From the NCBI GenBank assembly GCA_009839505.1, contig VXPO01000085.1, positions 1-42,573 on the forward strand: DNA of 42,573 bases, written 5' to 3'. The stretch comes from Gammaproteobacteria bacterium (GTDB lineage: Bacteria > Pseudomonadota > Gammaproteobacteria > Pseudomonadales > Azotimanducaceae). The translations under genes and the position numbers were made by a program. Under the pieces are notes generated by a model. It made no database searches and had not been told where the DNA came from. It was given only the letters and a program-made list of their open reading frames with translations. Within the stretch, counting starts at the first letter, position 1, and every line of letters begins with the position of its first letter. Below, one piece after another: positions 10,628-34,043 of the stretch.

Positions 10628-10676
10628 CGACTCGACGATCCGCGGTCGTCGTCCGTCGTAGGGTCCATGCGAGCTG

Positions 10677-10719
10677 ATTATGGGAACGAGCGCACGTAGG
10701 CGCGTCCCCAACATTGGGG
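10677..10719 (-). promoter_or_regulatory. Promoter of surface protein A with shared palindrome
   Basis: On the minus strand CCCCAATGTTGGGG (10706-10719) continues as TTGGGGACGC. A -10-like CATAAT (10677-10682) follows exactly 23 nt after TTGGGG. This would centre the palindrome near -42, the position of a class II activator. No convincing -35 hexamer is present. The same arrangement precedes the other two giant genes. The predicted untranslated leader is about 43 nt. Confidence 0.55.
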
Positions 10720-10747
10720 CGATTTGACTTGGTCGTCCCGCCGTCTA

Positions 10748-10762
10748 GCCCGACGGTCGGGC
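10748..10762 (-). terminator. Hairpin after surface protein B, weak terminator candidate
   Basis: The 15-base gcccgacggtcgggc folds into a 6-bp GC stem with a 3-nt loop, 4 bases beyond the stop codon of the gene at 10767-22745. No T tract follows in the minus direction, so intrinsic termination is uncertain. Confidence 0.3.
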
Positions 10763-10766
10763 AGCG

Positions 10767-13700
10767 CTAGAAGGAGGCTCTGCAGCTAATCCCGATCTGC
10801 GTCCCGTGGAGTCCTCGTCCCACGCCCAGTTCGGCGGCGACGCGCTCCAAGTGGTTCGCGAACTCGTACCGTACGCCCACGCGGGCGTCGCCGCCGAGTT
10901 CTCCCGCACCCCATGCCGCGAACGGCCGGGTCAGGCCGCCGAAGGCCTTGGTCCCGTAACCGACCGAGGCTTCGAATCGCCAGGGTATCGTCCGCCCCTT
11001 GGCGTCGGGGCGCATCTCCAAGGCACGCAGCCCGCGGCTCCAACCGTAAGCGAGCCCGGCGTCGTCGCCCAAGCTCGACTTCATCGTCAAGGCGAAGCCC
11101 GTGCCGTCGGGTTTCGGCAGCAGGGACGCCGACGCCTCGGCACCGTAGTCGCGGTAGCCCGACGTCGAGTGGGTCGCCAACGAACGCAGCGCCACCGTGT
11201 ATCCGAGGCGCCGGTAGTCGCAGCGGTAGCGGACTCCCGCCTCCAGCTCCAGACCGGCGCCCGAACCGCCGTCGCCCCAATCGCCGCGGGCGTTGGCACG
11301 AAGGTAGGTGACCACGGATGCCGACCCCCGGGAGCGGAGATGACCCGCCTCGAGTCCGATCCGAGCCCGACCGGCGGACGCCATCCGACCCGCGACCGCG
11401 GAGGTTCCCGCATCCGTTTCAACCTCGGCGATCCCCACCTCCTCCAGCAGCGATAGACTCCAAGGAACGTTCTCCCCGAGTTCCTGGCGACCGCCGAGCG
11501 CGAACAGGCGCATCTCGAGATCAGCCACGTCGCGACGGCCCGAGTCGCAGCGTTCCAGAGTGGCCGATCCCCGCCCGAAGCCGATGGTCGCCCAGATCCA
11601 TCCCCGCTCGAGGATTGCACCCGCATAGGGACTGACGCTGTCGATCTCGGTCTCCAGCAGACCTTCGCCCTCGCCCGCGCGGCCGCAGGCATCCAACGAC
11701 CGGGCGAACCGGTAGTCGGTCTCGCCCCGGCTGTGTGCCAGCGACAAGCCGGCGACCCAATCCCCGAACCGCCCGTCCACGCCGATCTGTGCGGCGTCGA
11801 GCGTGCCCCGGACTTCTGCGTCTTCGCCGCCCTGGAAACGGCGGACGCCGCCCCGACCCCAGATGGACCACGACGTCCCGCCGGTGGCGGAGTCGGCCAC
11901 GGAGAAGGCAAGGATCCCGTCGCGGAGCGGCGGATGCGGCTGCGGGTGCAGGCCCGCAGGTGTCGACCAGTTCCCCCAGGTCAATGCGTTCGACACGACC
12001 GGCGACCGACGCTCACCGAGCAACGCCTCGAGGCCAGACGCGAGAGGCGGCAACGCTTGCGGATCCCGGTCGACGGGCCCACCAGCTGCGGCCAGGCGGT
12101 CACGTGCCGGACCGAACCGGTCCGCCACGGCGGACACCACCTCGCCGAGATGGCCACCCCCGATCAGGGCGAGCGCGCTCTCGATCGCCGAGAGTTCGGC
12201 GGGGTCCGAAACCACGAGGACATCGAACGTTCCGCTTGCCTCGCCCTTGTCGTTGATCGCGGTCACCGAAACCGTGGCCTCGCCTTCCGAGACCGGATGC
12301 ACGGTCAGCGTTCCGTCGATCATGTCGACGGCAGCCACGTCCGGGTCGGACGACACCGCCGCGAAGGTCAGTTCGTCGCCCCCGAAATAGGTGCCGAGCG
12401 CGAGTTCCCGCGGCGCGCCGCCGACGCACAGGTGGACGTTCGGCAGGGACTCGTGCGCCGACGGCGGCGCCAGATCGTCGTCCAAGATCGTGCCGCGGGA
12501 CCGCGCCTCGCTATCGGCGACGCCCTGCTGAACCACCCTCCAGACCAGCGCGAGATGTTCCTCGTCGGGCTCGACGATGGCATCGTCTATCACCGGCACC
12601 GACACCTCCGCCGCGATGACGCCGGGAACGAAGGTGAGTTCTCCGGCGGCCATCGCGTAGTCTTCGCCGACGACCGCCGTGCCGTCCTCCGTGGAGTAGG
12701 CAACCGCCACCTCTCTCCCGCTGGCCCCACTCAGGGTCACAGCGAACCGGAGCTCGCCTTCGGACTCGACCGCGGTTGCGTCGGAGACCGTCACCGTGGG
12801 CGGTTCGTCGTCGTCGACGATCTCCGCGGTGGCGGTATCGTCCGCCACGACAAGGCCTACCCCGTCCGACAACACGAGGTCGAATGACTCGTCGGGCTCG
12901 TCCAAGTCGTCGTCGACCACGGGAACGAAAACCGTCCGCGCCGTGTCGCCCCGCGAGAAGGTCGCCGAGCCGGCCGTCCGGGCATAGTCCGTCCCGGCGA
13001 CGGCCGTCGCGTCCTCCGTTCGGTAGGCCACCGTCAAGTCCCTGGGGGCCGCCCGGTCGAGCGACAAGCGGAACCCCGCCTCGCCGTCCGACTCGCCGAC
13101 GGAGGTGTCCGCAACGGTCAGGATCGGCAGCCCGTCGTCGTCCCAGATCGATCCGGTGGCCGACTCACGTCCCTCGGCAAGCGCGGCGTTGATCGGCGCA
13201 GACAGGTTCACCGCGAGGGTCTCGTCCGGCTCTTGGAGGTCGTCCTGCAGGGTCGCCACCGTGACCGTTTGCGTGGTCGCGCCGGCGTCGAAAGTAAGCG
13301 TGCCGGACGCGAACACGTAGTCGGTGCCCACAGTGGCGGTGCCATCCGAGGTGGCGTAGCGCACCGACACGGGCAGACTGGTCGATCCAACGAGCGTCAC
13401 CACGAACTCCAGGGGGTCACCTTCGAAGCCGCCGACATCGGCGATCGACAGCGTCGTGGCATCGTTGTCGAGGATCAGTCCCTCGGCACTGGCGATCGCG
13501 ATGTTGGCGCCGCTGGACGCCGACAGCGTCACGGTCAGGGACTCCGTCGACTCGTCCAGTTCGTCGTCCACCGATGGTACGGCGATGGTCCGCGCGAGGG
13601 TGCCCGGCGCGAATTCGAGGGTTCCGGAACCGGCTTGGTAGTCTCCGGGCGCAATCGCCGTTCCGTCGGACGTGGCATAGTCGACGGTCACCCGCTGGCC

Positions 13701-16700
13701 GCTCGAGCCGCTCAGGCTCACGACGAAGTCGAGGGTCTCCCCCTCTACCCCTTCGGTCGCCGCGACCCTGAGAACCGGCGAGCCGTCGTCGTCGATTACC
13801 GTGGCGGTACCCTCCTCGTCGGCAAGCACCGCCCCTTGCGGCGAAGACAGCACCGCCGAGAATGTCTCGTCCGGTTCGTCCAGGGCGTCGTCGAGCACCA
13901 CGACCGCAATCTCGAGGCGCCGGTCCTCCGGCGCGAAGGTGAGCTGCCCCGAGGTCGTTTCGTAGTCCTCGCCGGCCACGGCCTCGCCGTCGACCGTCGT
14001 GAAGTCCGCGGTGACGACGCCGCTGCGCGCGCCCGCCACCGTGACATCGAACACGGCGGTTCCGCCTTCGACGACGCGGGTATCGCCGATGGAAATCTCC
14101 GGGGCTTCGCTGCGGTCGAGAATGACGCCGACGCCGGAGTCCACCCCCAGCACGGCACCCTCGGCAGACGACAGGTTCAGCCGGAAGGTCTCGTCGGGCT
14201 CGTGGACGGCGTCGGCTGTGAGCGCCACGGTCACCGTCAGGCTGGTGTCATCGGGCGCGAAGGTCAGCGTTCCGCCAGCGAAGGCGTAGTCCGCATGGAC
14301 CGAAGCGGTGCCGTCGACCGTGCGGTACTGAACCGTGGCCGAGCGCGTCGTTGTGCCGCTCTTGGTGATCACAAAGCTGGCCGTGCCGCCCTCGGGCCCG
14401 CGTGCGCCGCCGACACTCAAGGTGGCCGACCGGTCATCGTCGAGAATCGTGCCTTCGGCGACATCCCTCGCGGCGACGGCGTTGTCCACCGCCGACAGGG
14501 TCAGCGTGAACGTCTCGTCCGGTTCGTCGGCGCTGTCGTCGCGCAACGCGATGCTCACGGTCGTTGCCAGCCCGCCGGCGGCGATGGTGACCGTACCCGA
14601 CGCCGACTCGTAGTCCTCGCCGTCGACCGCGGTACCATCGGCGGTGTCGAACCGCGCGGTCACCGCCCGTCCGCTGGGCTTGTTGAGCGAGACCGTGAAC
14701 TCAATGGTGCCGTCGCCCTCCGTGGCGATCGCGTCGGCGACCGTCAGCAGGGCCGCGCCGTCGTCGTCGATGATCTCGCCGTCGGCGGAGTCGACGGCGA
14801 GCGTCGCGTTCGCGGGCGACGACAACGCAAGGGCGAAGGCCTCGTCCGGCTCGTCGACGTCGTCGTCCACCAGCTGCACGGCCACGGTCCTGCGCGTCTG
14901 CCCCGCTGCGAAGGTCAACGTGCCGTCGACTGGCCGGTAGTCGTCGTTCTCGACCGCCGTTCCGTCCGCCGTTGCGTAGCCCACCGTCACCGTCCGGGCC
15001 GAATTCGGCTCCAACGTGACCACGAAGTCGACGCTGCCCCCCTCGACATCCCGGCCACCCGTTACCGAGAGTGCCGGCGACGCGTCGTCGTCGAGGATCG
15101 TGCCGTCCGCCGAGGGCGTCGCGACGGTCGCGTTCGCGGGACTCGAGAGGTTGAGCGCGAAGGTCTCGTCCGCCTCGTCGAGGGCATCGTCGAGGAGCGC
15201 AACGGCCACCGTCCGGGCCGTTTCGCCCGGCGCGAAGGTGAGCGAGCCCGATGTGAAGTCGTAGTCCGCGCCCGCCTCGGCGCTGCCGTCGGTCGTCTCG
15301 TAGACCACTGTCACCGAGCGCGTGCTCGACGGCGCCAGGCTCACGACGAACTCGACCGTGCCGCCTTCGACATCCTCGCCGCCCGTCACCGAGAGCCGGG
15401 GCGCCGCGTCGGTATCGACGATCGTGCCCACTGCGGTGCCGACGGCGATATTGGCGTCCACCGCGTTCGACAGCGTCAGTTCGAAGATCTCTTCCGGTTC
15501 GTCCACGGCGTCGTCGAGCAGCCGGACCGGCACCGTCGCCGATTCTTCCCCCGCGGCGAACGTGAGCGTGCCCGCGACAGCCCCGTAGTCTGCGCCCGCC
15601 ACGGCGGTTCCGTCGACCGTCGCATAGTCGACGGTCGCGGTGCGGCTGGTGGAACCCCGGCGGGCGATCTCGAACTCGAGGGTGGACCCCTCCTCCCCGG
15701 AGCCTCCGGAGACCGAGAGTACCGGCGTTCCGTCGTCGTCGGTGATGGTTCCGGTCGCCGCATCCCTCGTCAACGTCGCGTTGACCGGCGACGACAGCGA
15801 CAGCGTGAAGGTCTCGTCCTGCTCCTCGATGGTGTCGTCGGGAAGCGCCAGCGTGACCGTCGCGGCCCGTTGGAAAGGCGCCAACTCGAGCGTGCCGTTC
15901 GCGGCGACGTAGTCGCTGCCCGCGAGCGCCGTGCCGTCGGCGGTCGCGTATGCCACCTCGACGCGTTGCGCACTCGGCTCCAGAAGTGTGAACAGGAAGA
16001 CGATCTCGGTGCCCTCCACGCCGACCGTATCGGCCACGTGGAGTTCTGGCGGATCGTCGTCGTCGAGGATCACCCCGCCGCCCACGTCCCGCGCCAGGAT
16101 CGCGTTTCGAGGGCGGGTCAGGCGCACCGTGAGGTCTTCATCGGGCTCGTCCAGGGAGTCATCCAATGCCGCCACTTCGACCGTCCCTTGCCGCGTGCCT
16201 GCGCTCAGCGTCAGGACACCCCGATTCGCGGCGTAGTCGACTCCCGCCACCGCCGAACCGTCGACGGTTTGGTAGGTCACCTCCACATCGTGACCGCTGG
16301 CCGCGGTCAAGGACACCGTGAACGCCAGCGTGCCTCCCTCGCCGACCGCGGGGGCGTCGGCAACCGAGACCATCGGCGGATCGTCGTTGTCCTCGATCGT
16401 GCCCAACGCGACCGGGTCGGCAAGGCTGGTGTTGACGGGCGACGAAAGAAGCAGCACGAACAGTTCGTCCGGCTCGTCGATGTCGTCCTCAAGAAGCGCA
16501 ACCGGCAGCGCGATGCCGCTCTCGCCCGGTTCGATCGTCAACCGACCGGCCGTCGCCTCGTAGTCCTCGCCCGCCCGGGCGGTGGCGTCCAGGAACTCGT
16601 AGTCCACCGTCACGGCGCGACCGCTGGTGCCGGACAGGCTGAACTGGAACGCCAGTTCGCCGCCCTCAGGCCCGCGTGCATCGTCCACCGAGAGCAGCGG

Positions 16701-19700
16701 TGGCTCGTTGACGTCGATAATCGTACCCTCGGCGGTATCGACCCCCAGCGTGGCGCCGATCGGAGCGCTCAGCGTCATCACGAAGGTCTCGTCGTCCTCG
16801 TCCGCGTTGTCGGAAAGGAGCCCCACGGGGACCGTCCTGACGCTCCCCTCGCCTGGCTCGAATGTCAGCAACCCTGCCGCCGCGGCGTAGTCGGCGCCGG
16901 CAACCGCCGTGCCGTCCGACGTCGCATAGCCCACGGTGACGGCCTGGCTGCTGACGCCCGTCAGGGTGACGGCGAACCCGATGTCGCTGCCTTCGACACC
17001 CGTGCCGCCCGTGATGGAGAACACCGGTGGGTCGTCGTTGTCGAGGATGGTTCCCGCGGCCTCGGCAACGTCCACGGTGGCGAATTGGGCGTCGCCGAGC
17101 ACGACCCCGAGGTGCTCGTCCGGTTCGTCGACGTCGTCGTCGACCAGGGCGACTTCGACCGTGGCCGACGACTCGCCGGGCTGGATCTCCAGCACGCCCT
17201 CCTTCGCCTCGTAGTCCATTCCGGCGACTGCCGTGCCGTCGACCACGCGGTAGCCGACGGTCACGACCTGGGCGCTGACGCCGTCGAGCGCAACGTCGAA
17301 CACGAGCATCCCGTCTTCGGGGGCATCCGGCGCATCGGCGATCGAGAGGGATGGCGGCACCTCGTTGTCCTCGATCGTGCCGCGCGCGAACTCGGCGGCG
17401 AGGTCGATCCCCGACGGGTCGGAGAAGCGCACCGCGAACACCTCGTCGATCTCGTGGACGGTGTCGTCCAGCGTCGTGACGGCGAACGTCGTGGCTGACT
17501 CCCCCGGAGCGAAGCTGATCACCCCGGTGTCGGGTTCGAAGTCCTCGCCCGATCCCGCGGCCGGATTTCCGGCGAGCTCTTCGCCCTCCGCTTCGTCCGC
17601 GGCGTAGCGGACGGTCACCGTCCGACTGCTCCCGCCCACCAGGCTGGCCACGAAGGACAGCGTCTCGCCCTCGACGCCCCGTGCGTCGGCGACCGTCAGC
17701 AGCGGCGGATCGTTGCCGTCCTCGATCACGCCCTCGGCTGCGGCATCCGCCGGGGCGAGCGTGGCACCCATGGGGTCCGACAGTTCCATCTCGAACGTCT
17801 CGTCCGGTTCGTCGAGGTCGTCGGCGAGCAGTGCCACCGGCAGCGCCATCACGGCCTCGCCGTCCGGCTCGAAGGTCAACACGCCGCTGGCCGCTGCATA
17901 GTCGAGACCCGTCGCCGTGCCGTCCTTCGTGGCGTAGCGAACGGTGATCGTCTGGCTGCTGGCGGCGCTCCGGCTCACCGAGAACTCCACCTCGCCACCC
18001 TCCACGCCGCGCCCGCCGGTGATGGACAGCGCCGGAGGACCGTCGTTGTCCGTGATCGTGCCGGCACCGTCGGTGTCGTCCACGGTGGCGTTCTGCGCCG
18101 CGCCGAGAACGACATGGAAACCCTCGTCTAGTTCGTCCTTGTCGTCGTCGATGGAGGCGACCGCGATGGTGCTGCTGGTCTGCGCCGCCTCGAATGTGAG
18201 GACGGCCTGGTCGGGGACGTAGTCCTCACCCGCGACCGCCGTGCCGTCCTGAGTGCGGTAGCCCACGGTGACGCGGCGGCCGCTCGCCGGACTCAGGGTG
18301 ACCACGAACCCGAGCGTTGCACCCTCCTCCACCGCGGTCGCGTCGGCGATCGTCAGCGTCGGCAGATCGTCGACGTCCTCGATTACCCCTTCGGCCTGGC
18401 CCGTGGTGATCCTGGCGCCCCTGGCGCCCGTCAGCACGAGTTCGAATGTCTCTTCGTCCTCCTCGTCGAGGGCATCGGCGAGGAGGTCCACGTCGATGGA
18501 CTTGGACGTCTCGCCGACACCGAAGTCCAAGCTGCCGGTGTTGCTCCCCGACTTCGCCTGGAAATCTGCACCCAGGGTCGCCGTACCGCTTCGCAGTTCG
18601 TAGTCGACCGTCAACGTGCTCGCGAAGTCTCCGCTGACCGCGACCACGAAGGACACCGTCTCGCCCTCCTTGCCCCGGGCTCCGTCGACCGTCACGTGAA
18701 CATCGTCGTCCAGGATCGTGCCGACGGCGACGCGCTTCGCGAAGACGTAGGGTGGTTCTTCGCCGATGACGACCTGGCGTGGATGGTCGAGTTCGATCTC
18801 GAAGGTCTCGGTGCCCTCGGGCTCGTCGTCGTCGATGGCGGAGACGGCGATGGTTCGCCGGGACGTCCCCGGCGAAAACGTCAGTTGTCCGCTGTAGTGG
18901 GAGCTGGTGTAGTCGTCGCCCTCGGTTGCCGTGTCTTCCGTAATCTCGTAGTTCACACGGATCGCCTGGTAGTGGGCGACATCCATCGTCACCTCGAAGT
19001 TCATCGTCGGATCGGCGTCGCCCTCGTTGGCTTCCTGGTCGGTGATCGACACCTGGGGACTCGGATCGGTGTCGACGACGAGACCGTTGCCCTCGCCATC
19101 CCACCCGTAGTCCTCGAACCAGGACTGATTGCCCGACGGGCGTCCGAAGACGGCGTTGACGACTTCACTGAGACCGACCTTGAAGGTCTCCTCGTCGGGT
19201 TCGTCGAGCATGTCCTCGAGCAGCGGCACCTCGATGGTGCGGCTGGTTTGCCCGGGCGCGAACTCCAGCATCGCGTCGACCGAGTCGAAGTCGTCCGCCG
19301 TCGCCGTGCCGTACCGGCTCTGGTAGCGCATCGACACGCGCCGCTCGCTGGCCGCAGACAGCCTGACCTCGAACGCGGCGGACGTGCCCTCGTCTGCTCG
19401 GGCGTCGCGGATGCCGACATGAGGAGGCCGGTCGTCGTCCGTCACGGTGACACGGGTGGTCCATTGCGCGGGGGCGGCGACGTGACCCTCGACCACGGTG
19501 AAGTGGATGTCGAAGGTCTCGTCGTCCTCATCGACGGCGTCGCCCTTCGTTCGCACATCGAACGGGTCGGCGGCCGCTTCCTCTGCCTTGATCGACAGTT
19601 CGCGGTCGAACGTGTGATAGTCTGCCGCGCCCGCCGTGCCGTGGGCGGTCCGCGCTTGGATCTTGACCGGGTACTCGCTCAGCGTCGAGCCGGTCTCGAA

Positions 19701-22745: not shown

Positions 22746-22801
22746 GTCGACGAACAGTCGCCCCCCTGAGCCCTTGCGCGGCGTCCATCCGCGCCTCGCC
22801 C

Positions 22802-22846
22802 AAAATACGCAAGATGCTCCGACGGGGCGTCCCCAAGATTGGGGAC
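22802..22846 (-). promoter_or_regulatory. Promoter of surface protein B with shared palindrome
   Basis: On the minus strand the 18-bp GTCCCCAATCTTGGGGAC (22829-22846) is a perfect inverted repeat with 8-bp arms and a 2-bp centre. It is the best copy of the three. A -10-like TATTTT (22802-22807) follows exactly 23 nt after TTGGGG. The predicted start site is near 22795, about 50 nt before the ATG. Confidence 0.6.
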
Positions 22847-22924
22847 AAAAACGCCGGTTCTGATGGCTTGGTTGCGACTGACCGGGCCAGTCAGGTCATG
22901 GAGCGCCCCAAGCGGCTCCAGGTT

Positions 22925-25900
22925 CTACGGAACGACGGTGCTTTCCGCCTCGTGGCGCGGGGAAGTCGACAGATTGGTCAGGTGGCCGGTGGGACTCCTC
23001 AGCAGACTCATCACCCAGATGGGCTCGTCCGATTCGATCCGTACCTGCCACTTGCCCGCACCGTCGCCGAACGCACCGCCCTCGATGTCCTCGCTGTCGC
23101 CGGATTCCAGCTCAACCGAGGTCAACTCGAGCGAAGCGCCGGCGGGTACGGTCGCCCGCACCGGATCGCCCGGGGATATTCCGTCGCTATCGATGCCGGT
23201 CAAGGTCACGGCGGCGTCGATCGTGCCGGGATTGATCAGACGCAGTCGGCTGACCTGTCTGTCGTTGCTCGCCGGGTTGAGGAATACGACCCGGTAGACG
23301 TCGTCGTCGATGGGCGCGAGATCGTGCATCGCGGTGACGAAACCGTCGTCGGTGCGGATGTAGCCCAGCACCTCGATGTCGAGTTCGCTGCTGAGCTCCA
23401 ACCGCCAGGCACCCTCGCCAGCGCCCGTGCTGCCGGCAAGTCCCTTATCGGGATTCCCCAGTTCCAGATCGTCGGAGTTGAACTGCGCGGCCGCGCCGGC
23501 GTCGATCGACAGGATCACCGTCTCATAGGTCGTATCGGTGTCGTCGAACGCCTCGATCAGGACGTTCCCCGCTTGCGCCGACTGGTTGATCACACGGACG
23601 AATCCCTGCAGGTCAGGGTTCGATACGGAGGGGAACAGCGGCACGGTGACCGAACCTTCGGCACTGCCGGGCGTCTGGGGGGCGGTCGACAGGTTGGTCA
23701 GCCGTCCCTGGCTCGCCAGCAGACTCATGGCCACGATCGGCGTGTCCGAGACGACCTCCAGTTGCCACTTGCCTTCGCCGTCGCCCAGGGCGCCACCCTC
23801 GATGCCCGGGCCGGTGCCGGCTTCCAGTTCGGACGCGGTCAAGTCGATCGCGGATCCGGCCGGGAGATGGATGCGCACCTCTTCGGATTCCGTGCCGAGG
23901 TCGTCGATTCCGGTGACCGTCACGCTCGCGTCGACGTCTCCGGAATTGACTAGGCGCAGTCGGCTTTCCTGGTTGACGTTTTCGCCGGGGTTGAAGAAGA
24001 CCAGTCCGCGGTGGACGCCGGCCTCGACCGGCACGACGTCGTGCAGCGAGGTCACGAAGCCGTCGGAGGTGCGTGCATAGGACAACACCTCGATGTCGAG
24101 ATCGCTGGTGAGCAGCAGGCGCCAGTTGCCTTGGCCCGGCTGGCCGATCCCGTTGGGCAGGCCCTTGTCCGTGTTTCCGCCCTCGAGGTCGTCGGAGTTG
24201 AAGTGGGCCGCGCCGCCGGCGGCGATGCTGAGCGTCACCGGCCCGGCGCGCATGCCGTTGTCGTCGACGGCCTCGATGTCCACCTCGCCGGCCACCTCGG
24301 AGTGGCTGATCACGCGCACGAAACCCTGCCGGTCGGCGTTCGCCGCGGACTCGAACAGCGGTACGCGTCCACTCACCTCGCCTCCCCGGGCCGGCAGCCT
24401 GGCGCGGATCGTGAAGCCGCGCGCGTATATCTGTCCCGCGCTGCGGATTCGCCGATTGCCGGGGGTGTAGGTCACGGTCACGTCTTCTCCGGGTTGTACG
24501 GCTCGGGCCAGCGTCAGCACCACGGTGCTCGCGGCCACGCCGACGTCCGCGACGTTCGCCGGCTCGGCCGCGTCGGCACCCGAACCGTCGTTGCCGTCCA
24601 CCTGCACGTCGAAGGCACCCGGTTCGGGAACCGAGGACTCGTCCAGCATCCGGTCGAAACGCAGCGTCAGGCGGTCGGCCCGAGCCCGGGCGTCCACCGG
24701 CACCGGCGGCGTGTCGTTGTCCATGACCGCGACCGGCAGCGTCGCCACTTGGACCCCGTCGTAGCCACCACCACGCGCCTGATGGGCGATGCTTGCGGCA
24801 CCGTCGTCGGCGTCGCTGTCCTCGGCTGCGTCGACGGTGATGGTCCGTCCGAGTGCCCAGTCGTCGATGGCGAAAGTCACGGACGAGGGCCGCAAATCGA
24901 TGCCCGACCCCGAAACCACGCTGGCGGTCAGGATCACGGCGGACGATGGCTCCGTATCGAGGCGCACGGTATAGGTCGCGGTGCCGCCCTCGCCGACCGT
25001 GAGCATGCCGGTGGACAGCGCCACGCCGGCCCGGTCGTCGTCCACGACGGCGACCGACACGCTTTCCACGGCCACGCCTCCGTAACCGCCGCCGCTGGCC
25101 ACATGACTCACCGATGCCTGGTCGGCCGCCGTATCCTCGTCGTGGGCGGCGTGTACCGTGATGTTCTGGGCGATGGCCCAATTCGCGGCGTCGAAGGTGA
25201 GCGCGGCGGGTTCGACGCTGAGGTCGGCGCCGACGGGAGCTGAAGGCGTCACGGTGACCGGCCCGGTGGGTTCGGTGGCGAGCGACACGGCGTACGTCCC
25301 CTCGCCGCCTTCGCGAATCGACAGCGCGTTGGTCGAAAGGTCGACGGCGAGAACGTCGTCGTCCGCCACATTCACCGCCACCGCCGCCAGCGCGACGCCG
25401 TCGTAGGCGCCGCCGCCGACGGTGTGCGTGACGGTCTCCCGGGTATCCTCGCCATCGTCGTCCTGAAGTGCTTCTATGGTCACCATCTGCGCAGCCGCCC
25501 AGTCTGCCGCCGTGAACGTGAGAACCGCGGGACGGACGGCAATCGACGCACCGGCCGCAACGCTCGTCGTCACGGTCACCGGGGCGTCCGGCAACGCGTC
25601 GAGCACGACCGTGTAGGTCGTGGTGTCGCCCTCGGCGACAGACACCGAAGTCGCCGAGAAGGTCACGCCGGCGATGTCGTCGTCGATCACGGAGACGACG
25701 GTGTCCGGGACCGGCACGCCATCGTAGTCGCCGCCCCGCGCCGCGTGGCGCACGGTCACCAGCCCATCCACCGTGTCGTCGTCATGGGGCGCCCGGATGG
25801 TCACGATCTGGGTGGTGTCCCAGTCCGCGACGGTGAACGACAGGACCGCCGGCGCCACATCCAGCTCTCCGGAAGCGGTCGCCGTCACCGTCACGGGCGC

Positions 25901-28900
25901 AGTGGGTTGGGTGGACAGCCGGATGTTGTAAGTCGCGCTGCCGCCCTCCGGGACGTCGATTCTTGTTGCCCACACGACCACCCCCGGAGTGTCGTCGTCG
26001 GTCACCGTGACGTTGACGACGCCGAGCACATCGCCGTCGTAGCCGGCACCCGAGGCGGTGTGCCGCAGGGTCACCTCGTCGTCCGCCGTGTCGGCGTCGT
26101 CGCCGGCGGCAACCGCAACGGTTCGCGGCGTGGACCAATCGGTTGTCGTGATCACGATTTCGGCGGGACGGACCGTCAGATCCGCTCCAGTTGGTACGGC
26201 AACCGACATCGTCATGGTCGCCCGCGGAGCCGAGACAAGACGCACGGTGTAGTCGGTCTCGGCGTTTTCGGCTACGCCAAGGTGCGTGGTCGAGAACACC
26301 GCCTGCGGGGCATCGGCGTCCTCCACCGCGACGGCGACGCCCGGCACGTCGACCGCGCCGTAGCCCCCGCCGCTTGCCACATGGGTCACCGTCGCCGTCT
26401 CGTCGACGGCGTCGTCGTCGCCGGCCACCGTTACCGTTACCGTTCGCACGGTCATCCAGTCGGTCGGCGAGAACGTCACGGCCGAAGGTGCGACGTTCAG
26501 ATCCGACCCGGGCGGCGCGGTAGCCGTCACGGTCACCGGCCCCGTGGGTTCGGTAGTGAGAACCAGTGTGTAGACGGCGCTTCCTCGTTCGCGAATGTTC
26601 AACTCGGACGTCGAGACGTCCACGCCCTTCGTGTCGTCGTCCAACACCGTCGTGCGGACGCTGTCGACGGATACGCCGTCGTAGCCGCCGCCCGAGACGG
26701 CATGGGTCACGGTGGCCGCGTCGTCTTCACCGTCGGCGTCCTGTTCAGCTTCGACCGTCATGGTCCTGGCGGTTCCCCAGTCCGCCGGCGTGAACACGAG
26801 CCTGCCCGGGTCGACGGTGAGTCCGGAACCGGACGGTGCCGTCGCGGTCACTTCGACCGTACCGACGGGTTCGGTGTCGAGAACGACGGTGTACGTTGTC
26901 TGAGATCCTTCGTTAACCGCGAGCATCGTCGTGGAGATGACCACGCCGTCCACGTCGTCGTCGAAGACGTCGACGGTGACGTCGGACGTCGTCACCCGTT
27001 CGTAGCCGGAGCCGGTTGCGACGTGTGACAGCACCGAATAGCCGTCAACACTGTCGTCGTCCTCCTGGGCCGTCACCTCCACCGTCTGCGCCGTGCCCCA
27101 GGAAAACGTCGTGAAGGTCAGCCGCGAAGGGTTCGTCTCGATCTGGCCGATGCCCGTCGCATTGACGGCCACGGTGACCGATTCGACCGGTTCCGCCGTC
27201 AATTTCACTGCGTAGCTCGCGGACTTGCCCTCTTCGATGGTCAATGCGGGCGGATCCACCTCGACACCGGCGGGGTCGTTGGTCCGCTCGCGGAGGACGG
27301 ACAGCCGGTAGACGACCTGCGTCGCACCGTCTTGCGCGGTGACCGTGAGCGCGATCTCGTTGAAGCCCGGCTCCAGCGGAACCTGGATACCGGCCCGACC
27401 GGCATCGTCGTCGCCGGGTTCGGTGGAGAGGCCGGCGTTTCCATCCGCAGGCACGGCGAACACGGTTACGGTCGCGATGGAACGCCGGACCGTCGTCGCG
27501 TAGTGCAGGCTCGCCGGATCGAAGGTCGGGGTCAACGCGACAGTCGCTCCCGACGCCGTGTCGATGACCTCCAGCGTCAGCAGGGCGGCATCGGAGGAAC
27601 GCGGGCGTGGCGTCGCAGTCACCCGTGCGGGGTTCCCGGCGCCGTCGTCGTTGACCGCCCGAATCTCCAACTGGTACGTGGTGCCGTTCGCCAGACCACG
27701 AAACACGTACGAACCTCTGCTGCTTTGGCCCGGCCCGCTGTCGGGTATCGTCGACCAGTCCGGGTTCCAGGTCACCCCGCCGTCCGAACTGAGGCGGTAT
27801 TCGAAATGGGAGATGGTCTGACCGCCCGACGGCACCCCGGCGCGATAGTTGACGGCGACCTCGCCGTCGAGGGCGGAGGTGACGTTCGCGGTCGTTCTTC
27901 CCGGAGCGGGACAGTACGGCAGCGTCGAGGGGACAACCGTGCCCCGCTCGCGTTGGGTCGCGATGTCACTGCGGAACCTGCTGAGGGATCGGGGAACGCA
28001 GCCCCTCAGGTAGTTCCTCTCCAGGGAGAGTTCCACCAGGCTTTGGAGATCGCCGAGTTCTCTGGGGATCCGGCCGTCGAGCCGGTTGAAGTCCAGCCTC
28101 AGCACCTCGAGTCGAGTGAGGCTCCCGAACCAGTCGGGGAAGAACCCCTCCAGGCCGGTGTCGGAGATCGGCTGCTGGTACACGCTGACCTCGACGTTGC
28201 GGCCGAGGCGCAGGACTCGTAGCGACACGAGCCGTTGCAGGGAGTCGGGAATCTCGCCGCTCAGGCTGTTCGACCCCAGGTCCAGTTCGGTGAGCGCGGC
28301 GAGGTTGCCGAGAGAGTCCGGGATCGTGCCGCTCAGCCCGGGCAGATCGATGCCCACGACGCTGCGGTTGTTGCTGAGATCGAGCACGGTCAACTGCGAC
28401 AGGTTGCCGAGCTCTTCGGGAATCGGACCCCTCAGCCCGACGCCGCTGAGCCGGAGCACGGTCAGCGCGGAAAGCGAACCGAGTTCGGGCGTCAGTTCGC
28501 CGCGCAGCGAGGTCGAGTACAAATCCGTTTCCAAGTCGCTATCGAATGCCGTGACGCGCCCGTCCGACGTCTCGATGGCCATCCAGTCGCGCATGCTTCT
28601 GTCCGGGGACCAGTCCAGACTCGGCGGATCCTGCCCACCGACGACGGCTTCCCACCAGGCCATCAAGGTGTTGCAGTCGTCGATGAGACCGGCGCTGGGG
28701 GAACCCGTGACGCCGGTGACCGCGGGAGTGGTGGCCGCGCAGTACGGCGCGCGAATCACGGTGATCGTGTAGGTCTTGGTTTCGCCGTCCTCGGCGAGGA
28801 TCTCGAGCGTCATGACGTTGTCCCCGACCGCCAGCCGCATCTGTATGCCAGCCGTGTCGGGGTCGAGATCTTCGGGCGTGGCGGTCGCGACCGTCGACTT

Positions 28901-31900
28901 GACGTGGTTGGGTTCGGCGTGAATCGACACCACCGTGACGGTGTTGGCGACCTCGGCCGTGTAGGAGGTGACTGCCGGGTCGAACGCCGGCATCAGGGTC
29001 GCGGCTCCGTCGCCGTCGCTCACGGTCAGACCCTTGAGGTTCGCATCCGGCTCAGGATCCGTTCGCCCCGACACCGAGGGCGACCATGCGCCCTCGCCCT
29101 CGTCGTTGTTGGCACGGACTTGGATCTGGTACTCCGTGTCGTAGACGAGTCCGGTGATCGTGGCGCGGGTCCGTGCGACGCCCTGCGGCCCGGCCTCGAA
29201 CGCCCCGGCGTCGCCGGTGCGGTACTGCAGGTCGTAGTCGTCGATGGCCGGCCTGCCGCTGTTCGGCGGTTCCTCCCAGCGCACGTTCAAACTGGTACCG
29301 GACGTCTCCGCTATGCTCGGCGCCGACGGTGCATTGGGGGGTTCGTCGACGTCGCCGACATCGATGGCAACGTTGATCGTGTCGCTGTTGCCCATGTCGT
29401 CTTCGACCCTCACGGTCACGCGGTAGGTGATTCCCTGTTCGTGGTCGAGTCCGCCGTCAACCAGGAGCTGGCCGTCGCCGGCGTCGATGTCGAAGTGGGC
29501 CGCATCAGCGCCGAGCAGCGAATAGGTCAGCGGATCGCCGTCGTCGTCCTGGGCGGACACGGGCGAGCCGATGGGACTGCTTGGGGACGAGTTCTCTGCG
29601 ATGTTGCGCGTCGTCGAGACGCCCTCGTCGAAACTCGGCGATGCGTTGGCGCCGTCGTCGTCCGCGACCGTGACCTCGACGTCGGGGATGCCGCCCTCGT
29701 AGCCGCCGCCGGTGGCGGAGTGGGTCAGGGTGACGGGGTCGTCGTCCGCGTCGGCGTCGTCGGCGGCCGTCACGGTCACGGTCTGCGCCTGGTCCCAATT
29801 GGCGGTGGTGTAGGTCAGCATGGACGGGTTCACCGTCACGTCGCTACCCGACGTACCGCCGACCGTGACCACCGTGTCGCCCACCGGTTGGTAGTCCAGG
29901 CCAATCTCGTACTGCCCGCCGCCCGCGTCTCCTTCGACGACCGTCAACTCCGCCGGCGACACCCATCCGGTCGGCATCGTCAGGCAGGTCACCCCGGCGT
30001 CTTCGTAATGACCGCAATCGTGATCGGCTTCCGGGGTGTGGGGACAGTCGATCAGCCGCGCCTCGGTGCCGATGCAGGCCACGTCGTCCAGGTTGATGGG
30101 ACCGGTACCCTCGCCGAAGTGGGCGGCGGTCCGGACCCGGACGACGTCGACGAAACCCGCCTGCCGGCACGCGACCCGGCCGTCGAGTGCGTCCCAGCCG
30201 TCGTCGCAGACGGTGCCCCAGACGCCTCCGACGACGACCTCCACGCGCCCTTCGGCATCGTCGCTGCCGCCACTCAGGCGTAGGTCGCCCTCGGCGGTAG
30301 CGGGGTCGAAGTGGTACGTCAGCGACGACGACCAGACACCTGCGCCCTCGGCGTTGTTCGCCCGCACCTGGACCTGGTAGTGGGTGGGGGAGACCAACCC
30401 GCTGATCGTTCCGGTCGTGCCGGTCAACCCCTGCGGCCCCGCTGTGAAGGTGCCGGTCGTGCCGACCCGGTACTGCAGGTCGTAGTCGTCGACCGGGGGC
30501 CGGTCGAGGTCGCCGGGCGGATCCCAGGCGAACGTGGCGCTGTTGGCAGTCGTGGCCGTGACCCTCGGTGTCGACGGCGCCGAAGGAGGTTCGTCCACGT
30601 CGCCCACGGTGATCTCGACGCTGATCGTGTCGCTGCCGCCCTCGCCGTCTTCGACCCGGACGGAAACGCGGTAGTCGATCCCCTGCTCGTGGTCGAGGGG
30701 GCTGTTGACGAGAATCTGGCTGCTGGTTGCCGTGACCCCGAAGTGGGCGGCGTCGGTACCGAACAGCGAATAGGTCAATGGATCGTCGTCGGCGTCCGTC
30801 GCGGACACGGGCGCGCCGACCGGACTGCCGGCGGGGGAGTTCTCGGCGACGCTGCGGGAGGTGGCCGCGCCGTCGTCGAAGCTCGGCGCCTGGTTCGCGC
30901 CATCGTTGTCCGTGACCGTGACTGCGACGGTGGGGTTCGACGCGTCGTCGTAGCCGCCGCCGGTCGACGTGTGGGTAAGCGTGGCCTCGTCGTCCTGGGC
31001 ATCGGCGTCTTCGGCCGCCGTCACGGTGACGGTCTGGGACTGGTTCCAGTCGGCGACCGTGTACGTGAGCGTCGATGGGCGCGCGGTCAAGTCCGTCCCC
31101 GCCGTACCCCCGATGGTGACGACGACGGCGGCCGACGGTTCGGCGCTCAACTCGACCTCGTACTGGCCACCCTCCGTATCGCCCTCGGCGACAGACAGCG
31201 TGTTCGCCGACAGCCGCACCGTACCAAGCGCGGTGCCGTCGACCGAAGGAGTGCGGAAGGTCGCCGACGCCGACCACGCGCCGTCGCCCTCGTGGTTGAC
31301 GGCGCGCACCTGGATCTCGTAGTCCGTGCTGGGCACGAATCCGGCGATGGTGGCGGTGCTGACGAGCACATCCTGCGGGCCTGCCGTGAACGCGGCGTCG
31401 CCGTCGGCCAGGTACTGCAGGTCGTAGTGTTCGATGGCGGGCCGCCCGCTGTCCGCCGGCGGATCCCAGCGAAACGTCGCGCTCGTGGCGGTCAGGTTCG
31501 ACACCGTCGGCGGTCCCGGGGCCGAAGGGGGTTCGTCGACGTCGCTGACGTCGATGTCGACCTCGATGACGGCGAAGCCGCCAGCATCGTCATCGACCCT
31601 GACCGTGACCCCGTGGCTGGTGCTCTGCTCGTGGTCGAGGGCGCCGTTCACGCGGAGCTGTCCGCTGGACGCCACGATGTCGAACAACGCCGTGTCTCCG
31701 CCGACCAGCGAGTACGTCAGCGTCCCGCCGTCATCGTCTGTGGCGGACACCGGTGCGCCGACGAGCTGGCCCGGGGTGGAGTTCTCGGCGACGGTGCGCG
31801 AGGCCGGGCTTTCTTCGTCGAACCGCGGCGCCTGGTTGCCGCCCTCGTCGTCGATCACGGTGACGGCGACACTGGGGATCGACACGCCGTCGTAGCCGCC

Positions 31901-33892
31901 GCCGGTAGCCGAGTGGCTGAGGGTGACGGGGTCGTTGTCGGCGTCGGCGTCATGTGCGGCCGTCACGGTGACCGTCTGCCTCTGCGCCCAGTCGGTGGTC
32001 GTGAACGTGAGCACCGTGGACGTCGCGGTCACGTCGGTGCCCGAGGTCCCGTCCACGGTGACCACGACGTCCCCGGACGGCACGACGTCCAGGACGATCC
32101 CGTAGCGGCTACCTTCGGCATCCCCCTCGGCGACCGTCAGGATCTGCGGCGATACCGACACGGACGGCGGATCCGTGGCGTCGCAGACGAGCCCCACATC
32201 CTCCGAATGACTGCAGTTGCTGTTGCCGATACCCCTGTGCTGGCAGTCGATTAGACGCGACTCGGTCCCGTCGCAGCTGAGGTCGTCGAGGAGAATCCGA
32301 CCGGTCCCGGGACCGAAGCGCGAGGCGTCGTGGACCTCGAGGGCGCGCCGGAAGCCCAGTTGCCGACAGGCGACCTCCGCATTCGGATAGCCGTCGCTGT
32401 AGTCGGGAGGATCGCCCCAGCCGTCGTCGCAGACGGTCCCCCAGCTGCCGTTGAGGAAAACCGAGAGCCAGCCCTCGCTGTCGTCGGCCCCATCGCGGAG
32501 TGCCAAGTCGCCCTCTTCGCCCGGGGAATAGGTCGTGCGCAGCGTCGCCGACGCGGACCACGGGCCGGTGCCTTCGTCGCTCTTGGCGCGCACCTGGACC
32601 TCGTAGGCCGTGCCCGGCACCAGGCCGGTGATGGTCGCGGTGGTCGCCGCCACCGCCTGGGGACCCGCGGCGAACGCGCTCCCGTCGTCGGGCCGGTACT
32701 GCAGGTCGTAGCTCTCCGCAGCCGGTCGGTCGCCGTCCGGCGGCGCATTCCAAGTCACCGTCAGGCTGGTGCTGGTCTGGCTATGCGCCCTCGGTGCCGA
32801 GGGCGCCGTGGGCGGTTCGTCGACGTCGGTGACGCTGATCACGATGCGGATCGTGTCTTCGTGGCCCGCGTCGTCGGCGACTCTCACCGTCACGCGGTAG
32901 ACAACGCCCTGCTCGTGGTCCAGTGCCCCGGACGTCTGGATCTGCCCGTCGGTGGCGACGATGGCGAAGTGGGCGGCATCTGTGCCGAGCAGCGAATAGG
33001 TCAGCGGATCGTCGTCGGCATCCGTGGCGGACACCGGCGCGCCGACCGAACCGCCCGAAGGCGTGTTCTCGGCGACGCTGCGGGTCGCAGAGACCCCCTC
33101 GCCGAAACTCGGCGCCCGGTTGGCACCGTCGTCGTCGTACACCGTCACCGCGACGTCGACCGACGCGCTGTCGTAGCCGCCGCCGCTCGCCGAATGGGTC
33201 AGGGTGACGGTGTCGTCGACGGCGTCGGCGTCCTCCGCCGCGGTCACCGTGACGGTCCGCGCACGGTTCCAGTTGGCGGTGGTGTAGGTCAGCGCGGTCG
33301 GGCTCACCGTCACGTCCGTGCCCTGGGTGCCGCCGACCGTGACCATGACGTCCGACGTTGGCTGCCGCTCCAGAACGATGTCGTAGGTGCTCCCCGCCGT
33401 ATCCGCCTCGGCGACGAACAGTGCGTCCTCGGACACGACAATGGCAGGATTCCAACAGGTCACGCCGACGTCTTCGTTGTGACCGCAGTTGTGGTTCCCC
33501 AACCCTCGGTGCCGACAGTCGATCAGTCGCGATTCGTTCCCGTCGCAGCTGACATCGTCGAGGAGAATCGGGCCCGTTCCTTCGCCGAAGTAGGCACTGT
33601 CGTGGAACTCCACGACGCCGCCGGAGTAGCCCAACTGCCGACAGGCGACATCGCCGTTCGCAGTGCCGGCAGCGTCCACCCAGCCGTCGTCGCACACCGT
33701 GCCCCACTCGCCCACCGTTGTGGAGGTCGCGACCGTCCTGACCCGGAAGACCTCGAGACGTCCTTCGTGCTCGACCGCGCCGTCCCGAAGCCGCAGCTCG
33801 CCCTCTTCCTGCGCCCAGACCGGACCGGCGCAGACCAACGCCGCCATGGCGAGTACTCGGACGTACCCACAGGCTGCCGAGGTGACGTTCAT
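22925..33892 (-). CDS. Giant secreted SRCR/cadherin/FN3/LRR multidomain protein (surface protein C)
   Basis: Predicted exported protein of 3655 aa, with a signal peptide cleaved after VWA (residue 27). SRCR domains lie at about 31-147, 461-571 and 1201-1304, each with six cysteines (group A pattern). Calx-beta-like, cadherin-like and fibronectin III modules follow in four rounds; the third round lacks an SRCR. Next come a cadherin-like beta-sandwich (1616-1715) and plant-type LRRs (about 1795-1975, LxGxIPxxLGNLxxL) with a Cys pair on each side. An FN3 domain and a second beta-sandwich follow (about 1995-2205), then eight Calx-beta-like modules (2210-3066), a SwmB-like domain (3067-3165) and a 230-240-aa module present twice. 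There is no barrel, LPXTG or C-terminal Phe, so anchoring and the export route after Sec are unknown. No clear Shine-Dalgarno sequence precedes the ATG. Adhesion or host interaction is inference. Confidence 0.88.
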   Translation of the reverse strand: MNVTSAACGYVRVLAMAALVCAGPVWAQEEGELRLRDGAVEHEGRLEVFRVRTVATSTTVGEWGTVCDDGWVDAAGTANGDVACRQLGYSGGVVEFHDSAYFGEGTGPILLDDVSCDGNESRLIDCRHRGLGNHNCGHNEDVGVTCWNPAIVVSEDALFVAEADTAGSTYDIVLERQPTSDVMVTVGGTQGTDVTVSPTALTYTTANWNRARTVTVTAAEDADAVDDTVTLTHSASGGGYDSASVDVAVTVYDDDGANRAPSFGEGVSATRSVAENTPSGGSVGAPVSATDADDDPLTYSLLGTDAAHFAIVATDGQIQTSGALDHEQGVVYRVTVRVADDAGHEDTIRIVISVTDVDEPPTAPSAPRAHSQTSTSLTVTWNAPPDGDRPAAESYDLQYRPDDGSAFAAGPQAVAATTATITGLVPGTAYEVQVRAKSDEGTGPWSASATLRTTYSPGEEGDLALRDGADDSEGWLSVFLNGSWGTVCDDGWGDPPDYSDGYPNAEVACRQLGFRRALEVHDASRFGPGTGRILLDDLSCDGTESRLIDCQHRGIGNSNCSHSEDVGLVCDATDPPSVSVSPQILTVAEGDAEGSRYGIVLDVVPSGDVVVTVDGTSGTDVTATSTVLTFTTTDWAQRQTVTVTAAHDADADNDPVTLSHSATGGGYDGVSIPSVAVTVIDDEGGNQAPRFDEESPASRTVAENSTPGQLVGAPVSATDDDGGTLTYSLVGGDTALFDIVASSGQLRVNGALDHEQSTSHGVTVRVDDDAGGFAVIEVDIDVSDVDEPPSAPGPPTVSNLTATSATFRWDPPADSGRPAIEHYDLQYLADGDAAFTAGPQDVLVSTATIAGFVPSTDYEIQVRAVNHEGDGAWSASATFRTPSVDGTALGTVRLSANTLSVAEGDTEGGQYEVELSAEPSAAVVVTIGGTAGTDLTARPSTLTYTVADWNQSQTVTVTAAEDADAQDDEATLTHTSTGGGYDDASNPTVAVTVTDNDGANQAPSFDDGAATSRSVAENSPAGSPVGAPVSATDADDDPLTYSLFGTDAAHFGVTATSSQILVNSPLDHEQGIDYRVSVRVEDGEGGSDTISVEITVGDVDEPPSAPSTPRVTATTANSATFAWDPPGDLDRPPVDDYDLQYRVGTTGTFTAGPQGLTGTTGTISGLVSPTHYQVQVRANNAEGAGVWSSSLTYHFDPATAEGDLRLSGGSDDAEGRVEVVVGGVWGTVCDDGWDALDGRVACRQAGFVDVVRVRTAAHFGEGTGPINLDDVACIGTEARLIDCPHTPEADHDCGHYEDAGVTCLTMPTGWVSPAELTVVEGDAGGGQYEIGLDYQPVGDTVVTVGGTSGSDVTVNPSMLTYTTANWDQAQTVTVTAADDADADDDPVTLTHSATGGGYEGGIPDVEVTVADDDGANASPSFDEGVSTTRNIAENSSPSSPIGSPVSAQDDDGDPLTYSLLGADAAHFDIDAGDGQLLVDGGLDHEQGITYRVTVRVEDDMGNSDTINVAIDVGDVDEPPNAPSAPSIAETSGTSLNVRWEEPPNSGRPAIDDYDLQYRTGDAGAFEAGPQGVARTRATITGLVYDTEYQIQVRANNDEGEGAWSPSVSGRTDPEPDANLKGLTVSDGDGAATLMPAFDPAVTSYTAEVANTVTVVSIHAEPNHVKSTVATATPEDLDPDTAGIQMRLAVGDNVMTLEILAEDGETKTYTITVIRAPYCAATTPAVTGVTGSPSAGLIDDCNTLMAWWEAVVGGQDPPSLDWSPDRSMRDWMAIETSDGRVTAFDSDLETDLYSTSLRGELTPELGSLSALTVLRLSGVGLRGPIPEELGNLSQLTVLDLSNNRSVVGIDLPGLSGTIPDSLGNLAALTELDLGSNSLSGEIPDSLQRLVSLRVLRLGRNVEVSVYQQPISDTGLEGFFPDWFGSLTRLEVLRLDFNRLDGRIPRELGDLQSLVELSLERNYLRGCVPRSLSRFRSDIATQRERGTVVPSTLPYCPAPGRTTANVTSALDGEVAVNYRAGVPSGGQTISHFEYRLSSDGGVTWNPDWSTIPDSGPGQSSRGSYVFRGLANGTTYQLEIRAVNDDGAGNPARVTATPRPRSSDAALLTLEVIDTASGATVALTPTFDPASLHYATTVRRSIATVTVFAVPADGNAGLSTEPGDDDAGRAGIQVPLEPGFNEIALTVTAQDGATQVVYRLSVLRERTNDPAGVEVDPPALTIEEGKSASYAVKLTAEPVESVTVAVNATGIGQIETNPSRLTFTTFSWGTAQTVEVTAQEDDDSVDGYSVLSHVATGSGYERVTTSDVTVDVFDDDVDGVVISTTMLAVNEGSQTTYTVVLDTEPVGTVEVTATAPSGSGLTVDPGRLVFTPADWGTARTMTVEAEQDADGEDDAATVTHAVSGGGYDGVSVDSVRTTVLDDDTKGVDVSTSELNIRERGSAVYTLVLTTEPTGPVTVTATAPPGSDLNVAPSAVTFSPTDWMTVRTVTVTVAGDDDAVDETATVTHVASGGGYGAVDVPGVAVAVEDADAPQAVFSTTHLGVAENAETDYTVRLVSAPRATMTMSVAVPTGADLTVRPAEIVITTTDWSTPRTVAVAAGDDADTADDEVTLRHTASGAGYDGDVLGVVNVTVTDDDTPGVVVWATRIDVPEGGSATYNIRLSTQPTAPVTVTATASGELDVAPAVLSFTVADWDTTQIVTIRAPHDDDTVDGLVTVRHAARGGDYDGVPVPDTVVSVIDDDIAGVTFSATSVSVAEGDTTTYTVVLDALPDAPVTVTTSVAAGASIAVRPAVLTFTAADWAAAQMVTIEALQDDDGEDTRETVTHTVGGGAYDGVALAAVAVNVADDDVLAVDLSTNALSIREGGEGTYAVSLATEPTGPVTVTPSAPVGADLSVEPAALTFDAANWAIAQNITVHAAHDEDTAADQASVSHVASGGGYGGVAVESVSVAVVDDDRAGVALSTGMLTVGEGGTATYTVRLDTEPSSAVILTASVVSGSGIDLRPSSVTFAIDDWALGRTITVDAAEDSDADDGAASIAHQARGGGYDGVQVATLPVAVMDNDTPPVPVDARARADRLTLRFDRMLDESSVPEPGAFDVQVDGNDGSGADAAEPANVADVGVAASTVVLTLARAVQPGEDVTVTYTPGNRRIRSAGQIYARGFTIRARLPARGGEVSGRVPLFESAANADRQGFVRVISHSEVAGEVDIEAVDDNGMRAGPVTLSIAAGGAAHFNSDDLEGGNTDKGLPNGIGQPGQGNWRLLLTSDLDIEVLSYARTSDGFVTSLHDVVPVEAGVHRGLVFFNPGENVNQESRLRLVNSGDVDASVTVTGIDDLGTESEEVRIHLPAGSAIDLTASELEAGTGPGIEGGALGDGEGKWQLEVVSDTPIVAMSLLASQGRLTNLSTAPQTPGSAEGSVTVPLFPSVSNPDLQGFVRVINQSAQAGNVLIEAFDDTDTTYETVILSIDAGAAAQFNSDDLELGNPDKGLAGSTGAGEGAWRLELSSELDIEVLGYIRTDDGFVTAMHDLAPIDDDVYRVVFLNPASNDRQVSRLRLINPGTIDAAVTLTGIDSDGISPGDPVRATVPAGASLELTSVELESGDSEDIEGGAFGDGAGKWQVRIESDEPIWVMSLLRSPTGHLTNLSTSPRHEAESTVVP
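22958..24364 (-). repeat. Duplicated C-terminal module of surface protein C
   Basis: Residues about 3177-3406 and 3416-3645 are two copies of one module. Shared words in the same order are VPLF, QGFVRVI, FNSDDLE, DKGL, WRL, LDIEVL, DGFVT, HD, NPxxN, SRLRL, GxEGGAxGDGxGKWQ and LTNLST. I do not recognise the family. Its place at the very C-terminus, where a sorting or anchoring domain would be expected, makes an anchoring or secretion role possible. Confidence 0.75.
24695..27265 (-). repeat. Eight tandem Calx-beta-like modules inside surface protein C
   Basis: Residues 2210-3066 are eight units of about 107 aa with a common pattern: VxEGxxxTYTVxLxTEP, VTVTAxxxxG, TFTxxDWxxxxTVTVxAxxDxD, TVTHxxxGGGYDGV and DDDxxGV. 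The same module type also occurs singly four times in the N-terminal half, next to cadherin-like and FN3 modules. They differ from the DGTAxAGxDY modules of proteins A and B. Confidence 0.85.
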
Positions 33893-33997
33893 GCTGGCGT
33901 GGCGTTGGTAGAGGAGTGCCTGCTGTGCGTCCCGTGGATCGCCAACGCGGCCGCTCTGCGCACGCGTTTACTCCCATCCGGTCAATGAGACGACCGA

Positions 33998-34043
33998 AGC
34001 GTAGGCGAGTCCTAGGCGGTTCCGCGTCCCCAACATTGGTGAG
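33998..34043 (-). promoter_or_regulatory. Promoter of surface protein C with degenerate shared palindrome
   Basis: On the minus strand CACCAATGTTGGGGACGC lies within 34023-34041. The right half TTGGGGACGC is intact, but the left half CACCAA has one mismatch. A weak -10-like TACGCT (33998-34003) follows after 24 nt. The predicted leader is about 99 nt. The rest of the 230-bp intergenic region (33893-34122) shows nothing else recognisable. Confidence 0.45.

Follow-up and report, generated by a model that had tools for sequence, protein, structure and literature searches.

A palindromic promoter element shared by giant export-type genes and a LuxR-type regulator gene in a gammaproteobacterium

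The window, the whole stretch of 42,573 nucleotides analysed here, carries three giant genes on the minus strand, each with a near-palindrome upstream. The question is what this palindrome does and which protein reads it. The initial annotation had reported the near-palindrome with a common right side at all three genes, followed by a -10-like hexamer, and had suggested a dedicated regulator of a set of surface proteins. We found the palindrome upstream of all three genes, as two exact copies and one copy with a single mismatch, and the common right side TTGGGGACGC is present at each site.

Palindromes and promoters of the three giant genes

The features of the window are as follows.

10706-10719, minus strand: palindrome site 1, CCCCAATGTTGGGG, exact; ACGCG after it (10705-10701)
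10677-10682, minus strand: -10-like CATAAT, 37 nt from the first base of site 1; transcription start predicted near 10670
3212-10627, minus strand: giant gene 1; likely start MKTVCRLRG, export-type N-terminus, Calx-beta repeats
22831-22844, minus strand: palindrome site 2, CCCCAATCTTGGGG, exact; ACGCC after it
22802-22807, minus strand: -10-like TATTTT, 37 nt from the first base of site 2; transcription start predicted near 22795
10767-22745, minus strand: giant gene 2; 3992 aa, Calx-beta repeats in 28 stretches
34028-34041, minus strand: palindrome site 3, CACCAATGTTGGGG, one mismatch in the left arm; ACGCG after it
33998-34003, minus strand: -10-like TACGCT, 38 nt from the first base of site 3; transcription start predicted near 33991
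22925-33892, minus strand: giant gene 3; 3655 aa, SRCR, fn3, cadherin and LRR domains, C-terminal tandem module of about 240 aa

All three sites read toward the giant genes, sites 1 and 2 as exact CCCCAANNTTGGGG on the minus strand. The first span reported earlier is exact, but the second and third took in flanking bases; the hexamers do lie 23, 23 and 24 nt past the palindromes, as claimed. The longest ORF call of giant gene 1 starts inside site 1, and giant genes 1 and 2 have a C-terminal region in common. With up to two mismatches allowed, the window has five palindrome places, against a mean of 1.23 and a maximum of 4 in 100 shuffles. The motif is real; its third copy is imperfect, and it is not confined to these three genes.

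Targets in the source genome

The source genome (G000) comprises 4.70 Mb in 181 contigs and is 96% complete. It contains 12 exact copies of CCCCAANNTTGGGG, against 0.55 expected from base composition. Allowing up to one mismatch raises the count to 22; the reversed control gives 7, so most of the one-mismatch copies are probably due to chance; window site 3 is singled out from them by its flank, its -10 and its place. An 18-base pattern recovers 13 good sites including window site 3, and its reversed control has no exact match. Aligned in gene direction, most of the 13 sites have A[CT]GCG after CCCCAANNTTGGGG, and 11 of them have TAnnnT at a distance of 37 or 38 nt, counted from the first palindrome base (the exceptions are CATAAT at window site 1 and CACAAT at C53a). 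The likeness among sites ends at the palindrome, the flank and the -10.

The genome-wide scan that the initial annotation had proposed gave this set of targets: a co-directional ORF lies downstream of all 13 sites (the 12 exact copies and window site 3), and 12 of these genes encode large export-type proteins (ORF calls of 949 to 3992 aa, that of C66 running off the contig end). The 13th encodes a LuxR/GerE-type regulator. Against the refuting case named in the initial annotation, a motif equally frequent within genes or before unrelated ones, exact copies do not lie strewn over this genome: all 12 are promoter-placed. ORF calls of at least 949 aa make up 12 of the 13 targets, and 5 of the 135 other ORF calls in the window and ten fetched loci reach at least 900 aa. 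An export-type N-terminal stretch follows the predicted transcription start in all 12 large targets (mean hydropathy 1.55-2.46, against 0.56 for the regulator); that of C81 is weaker and also lies downstream of its promoter. Six of the 13 ORF calls (C53a, C66, C68a, C81, C178 and window gene 1) start within the site, just past its first bases or as much as 98 nt ahead of it, so their starts are overcalled.

The large targets carry varied Pfam domains. Those of window genes 1 and 2 (Calx-beta) and 3 (SRCR, fn3, cadherin, LRR) are joined by sulfatase, LRR and SRCR domains in C68b, cadherin-like domains in C32 and C66, CARDB in C35, subtilase and CARDB in C178, and a TonB-dependent receptor in C29b. 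C29a and C81 have no Pfam match above cut-off, and C53a is known by its alignment with window protein 1 (55% identity over 1256 columns). The tandem module of about 240 aa in the C-terminal part of window gene 3 is common to five of the 12 large targets (the others at L037, L038, L041 and L044) and has no Pfam match above cut-off. It gives 28 matches in G000 and is matched in 14 of 16 genomes of the genus, including some without a regulator orthologue, for example G012 and G013. Exclusive control of all giant genes by the site can be rejected, as many module-bearing giants in G000 have no site. We also searched thirteen further G000 regions, nine with module loci and four from contigs with paralogues, for perfect palindromes with 7-bp arms before ORFs of at least 300 aa; only the regulator paralogue on contig C142 had this palindrome geometry. 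The regulon of giants is non-exclusive.

The regulator gene lies next to one of the giants, with the following position.

Contig C68, L043:8706-9881, minus strand: LuxR-type regulator gene (C68a), with its own palindrome upstream

It is divergent from the sulfatase-LRR giant C68b, and each of the two genes has a palindrome of its own. We compared five regulator proteins for the Pfam families GerE and PAS_8. GerE (PF00196) is found at the C-terminus of the G000 regulator (24.7 bits, cut-off 23.5) and in its relatives (35.3 bits in L122, 35.5 in L133 and 28.9 in L124; L115, at 23.4, is just under the cut-off). PAS_8 is matched weakly at residues 186-223 of the G000 regulator (21.8 bits at a cut-off of 21.8); relatives score 18.1-19.4 bits (L115, L124, L133), and L122 is unlisted. 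No NCBIfam model matches the regulator above cut-off, and its PDB hits include the NarL DNA-binding domain and VqmA.

In an AlphaFold2 model of the orthologue L115 (mean pLDDT 83.7, pTM 0.62) the chain extends N-terminal of the PAS domain. Foldseek matched the model to the ligand-binding domains of VqsR, LasR and CviR (probability 1.00, E about 1e-4, TM at most 0.71 by target length). It also matched VqmA, and phytochrome hits were slightly better in E-value than these LuxR-type receptors. The match table gives no aligned range; since PAS and GerE lie behind the N-terminal domain, the VqsR, LasR and CviR matches are taken to be to that domain. The Pfam autoinducer-binding family gave no match even at E up to 1, so it is from the fold match, of modest score, that we infer an N-terminal domain of LuxR-ligand-binding type. 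This LuxR/GerE-type protein is our best candidate for the palindrome-binding protein.

Co-occurrence of regulator and palindrome across genomes

Conservation in related genomes, which the initial annotation had raised as a check, is seen at the regulator gene itself. The orthologue is present in 9 of the 16 genomes of the genus (G000 and eight others at 67-78% identity), and in 8 of the 9 the palindrome lies within 420 bp upstream; the orthologue of G002 (L065/L121) has none, with its upstream DNA present on the contig. Among 200 genomes of the family, 14 have a regulator relative (E up to 1e-160). The extended site CCCCAANNTTGGGGAYGC occurs in 12 genomes, every one of them among these 14; none of the 186 genomes lacking a close relative has it (Fisher 1.5e-17, uncorrected for relatedness and with the 1e-160 cut fixed once the E-values were known). 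At the cut of 1e-60 used by the search itself, relatives occur in 19 genomes, which still contain all 12 with CCCCAANNTTGGGGAYGC; the five further genomes hold remoter homologues (E 1e-67 to 1e-118) and no CCCCAANNTTGGGGAYGC. G003 misses the extended site by its last base, and the reversed control gave one match in the family, in one other genome (G093). The site in G008 comes with neither a regulator nor a correctly placed -10, and we set it aside as probably chance.

Searching the wider collection gave 33 loci, 24 of them with a homologue at least 52% identical over most of the query. An exact palindrome lies upstream of the regulator start in 22 of the 24, the nearest copy 51-343 bp away, and this position before its own gene may point to autoregulation. 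The exceptions are L121 (G002) and L132. In L132, a 53% homologue, the nearest sites are at -1569 and +1529, none being just upstream; the former may precede a 483-aa gene of a shared operon. Seven remoter loci (at most 42% identity) have no exact palindrome anywhere in the locus, a scope that suits L138 and L142 also, where the query is matched in part and 'upstream' is undefined; another of the seven, L134, has CCCCAATATTGAGG at -206. Outside the 24 and the 7 are L137, which was unscanned, and L140 (61% identity over only 56 residues), which has no exact copy. By their coordinates, four genomes bear two handles (G073=G183 at L111, G071=G169 at L112, G072=G085 at L117 and G070=G176 at L131), so the collection-locus and family-genome counts overlap and are not additive.

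By record title, the loci with both regulator and palindrome come from gamma-, alpha- and 'delta'-proteobacterial and Candidatus Binatia bins. In the tree, 'delta' regulators fall among alphaproteobacterial ones (support 88/90 and 84/79), a placement that is suggestive, not proof, of transfer, as bins can hold foreign contigs. Spread by plasmids was considered and rejected: 19 plasmid records match, all below 60% identity, and the ten listed are at 23-24%. The jk18x bins are from Ircinia sponges (PMC9531527), and we infer that the bin labels RHO, COS and IRC fit the sponges of another study (PMC8163846).

Elsewhere the regulon is small and mixed. Each of 16 other homologue-holding genomes has between one and six exact sites, and the reversed control is zero in these genomes except for one match each in G061 and G070. 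In 40 chosen loci outside G000 we counted 44 exact sites. Five have tied flanks and are unorientable (L145 and L153 among them); the 39 oriented ones precede 8 giants, 6 regulator genes, 21 other genes and, in 4 cases, nothing called. One of the eight giant-preceding sites (L179) has no -10. The giants elsewhere include sulfatases (G070, G071, G010), proteins with SRCR and LRR domains (G021, G071, G005, G010), a CARDB protein (G004) and a subtilase (G011). At or close to outside sites are genes for a Rieske oxygenase, TauD, a PLP decarboxylase, TctC and NMT1-type binding proteins; in the NMT1 case another ORF lies nearer to the site. The idea of a dedicated surface-protein regulator fits G000 only: elsewhere ordinary enzyme and transport genes are included as well. 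Many G000 giants are site-less.

Two side observations concern these loci. In L161 (G070:C34) four sites within 5 kb stand before the regulator, a GNAT-like gene, a PLP decarboxylase gene and a gene of 288 aa with a start like that of the TauD-type protein in L158. A dispersed GGCGACC-N5-GGTCGCC occurs near called gene starts on three contigs (L184, L185, L191) and is likely a REP-like repeat.

The paralogue on contig C142 bears on which protein reads the palindrome.

Contig C142, L193:5451-6611, minus strand: paralogous regulator gene, 45% identical to the regulator; palindrome at contig positions 6864-6877

Upstream of it is CCCCCAATTGGGGG, in which the arms are unchanged but the 2-nt spacer is lacking, and a one-mismatch version, CCCCCAATTGGAGG, precedes the neighbouring gene; TAnnnT lies at centre +30 for both. 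In G010, a 54% relative is preceded by the same spacer-free palindrome; read in gene direction, TAnnnT stands at +31, and the opposite strand offers one at +30 as well, so this copy is no help for orientation. Across the 16 genus genomes the exact spacer-free palindrome occurs in only two places, each before such a paralogue, and other one-mismatch sites of this type in G007-G010 have no such -10 geometry. Regulator and palindrome therefore appear, in these two genomes, to change together with the distance to the promoter held constant. The regulator gene could be autoregulated through a palindrome that another protein reads; the paralogue with its matching change speaks against this, and the pairing is the best evidence that the regulator family reads these palindromes. 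Upstream (-107) of a 40% homologue in G004 (L069) there is a different palindrome, CCCCGTCANNNTGACGGGG, perhaps a third regulator-operator pair.

Proposed mechanism and comparison with known systems

For promoter geometry we used 71 distinct exact sites from loci chosen for holding a site or a regulator. The A[CT]GCG flank by itself gave an orientation for 63 of these, and 8 with tied flanks were left out (the exact pattern omits window site 3). Measured from the first palindrome base, the distance to TAnnnT is 37 or 38 nt in 55 of the 63 oriented sites; on the opposite strand this holds for 2 of 63. Assuming a start 7 nt past the hexamer, the palindrome would be centred at about -42.5 or -43.5, the place of a class II activator; the spacing claimed for the window also holds at sites of many genomes. 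No -35 hexamer can be recognised in these promoters; A[CT]GCG occupies the -35 position.

We propose, with a probability of about 0.8, that CCCCAANNTTGGGG with A[CT]GCG is the operator of an autoregulated LuxR-type class II activator driving giant exported proteins, and the three genes of the window most likely belong to this regulon. The regulator would have three parts: at the N-terminus a domain of LuxR-ligand-binding type, then PAS, and last the GerE helix-turn-helix. A dimer would sit on the palindrome at -42.5/-43.5, in the position left vacant by the absent -35 box, and would recruit RNA polymerase to the TAnnnT-type -10, so turning on its own gene and the giant exported proteins together. 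The sites, their spacing, their targets in G000 and their association with the regulator gene across genomes are observed; binding, activation rather than repression, the ligand and a role in host contact are all predictions from sequence.

Some LuxR-type proteins are repressors released by ligand, and the same regulator might act mainly in this way. The site would overlap the -35 region and could block polymerase, and several gammaproteobacterial regulator promoters (for example L059, L060, L063) have a second half-site resembling CTCCCCAACATGGG just past the -10, a usual place for autorepression. We consider repression unlikely, given a standard class II centre in 55 of the 63 oriented sites, where repressor sites need no fixed phase, and promoters in which a -35 hexamer is not recognisable. 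The element could also be an unusual -35 region for an alternative sigma factor, the palindrome being incidental; such a reading would build on the strong conservation of A[CT]GCG some 18-19 nt ahead of the -10. It is considerably less probable than repression: both arms of the 14-bp palindrome are conserved well upstream of -35, the palindrome tracks the LuxR-type gene, the one gene compared with it, across genomes, and the paralogue alters the palindrome spacing and keeps the -10 distance. Palindromes are common in a GC-rich genome, and the reversed control did yield a third or so of the real places at one mismatch, but chance or a dispersed repeat has a negligible claim against the excess of exact copies, all promoter-placed, and a likeness that stops at the site, flank and -10, unlike that of a repeat.

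Our reading of the activator as part of something wider is tentative, and we would bet somewhat against it. A ligand-responsive regulator and its own operator may pass as one module between unrelated members of sponge microbiomes (gamma-, alpha- and 'delta'-proteobacteria and Binatia). In this lineage the module may have taken over a dozen giant surface genes, largely eukaryote-like, and much of the host-facing coat would then be switched at once by a single signal from the host or the community. Proteins with eukaryote-like domains such as cadherin and fn3 are believed to assist in keeping symbionts in sponges, and fn3 and cadherin genes are reported as enriched in sponge bins and laterally transferred (PMC8163846). 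With a candidate regulator and a defined operator, the timing and the signal of such protein production become testable, and the palindrome is a simple handle for listing the regulon in any symbiont genome.

None of the titles and abstract openings searched on this subject describes such an operator, regulator or regulon. Several known systems share parts of it. CsgD and VpsT are LuxR-type regulators of biofilm adhesins with response-regulator-like receivers and other sites. They resemble the present system in the LuxR-type control of surface matrix or large adhesins; we know of no autoregulated palindrome of the present kind for them. LuxR, LasR, CviR and VqsR are linked to our regulator by fold matches to ligand-binding domains (those of VqsR, LasR and CviR), by the GerE domain and by the predicted palindrome centre near -42.5, where the lux box is centred. 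Our regulator differs from them in its extra PAS domain, the lack of a Pfam autoinducer-binding match and a different box. VqmA, which binds DPO, has both PAS and GerE and is without the N-terminal domain; the regulator described here has this extra domain, with other targets and another site.

The regulator, with its weak PAS match, is also like the PAS-LuxR regulators of Streptomyces (PimM, PteF, AmphRIV and relatives), which combine a PAS domain with a C-terminal LuxR helix-turn-helix, and differs from the PimM family in the extra domain before PAS, the site at its own gene and, in G000, giant exported targets. As far as the account in PMC9774167 goes, PimM targets are antibiotic clusters and its site is CTVGGGAWWTCCCBAG, 16 bp in the -35 region, which is likewise a G/C-armed palindrome of similar length and position but has another core and other arms than CCCCAANNTTGGGG. 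The kind of regulator is known, and PAS-LuxR, with another palindrome, is its closest described analogue (PMC9774167).
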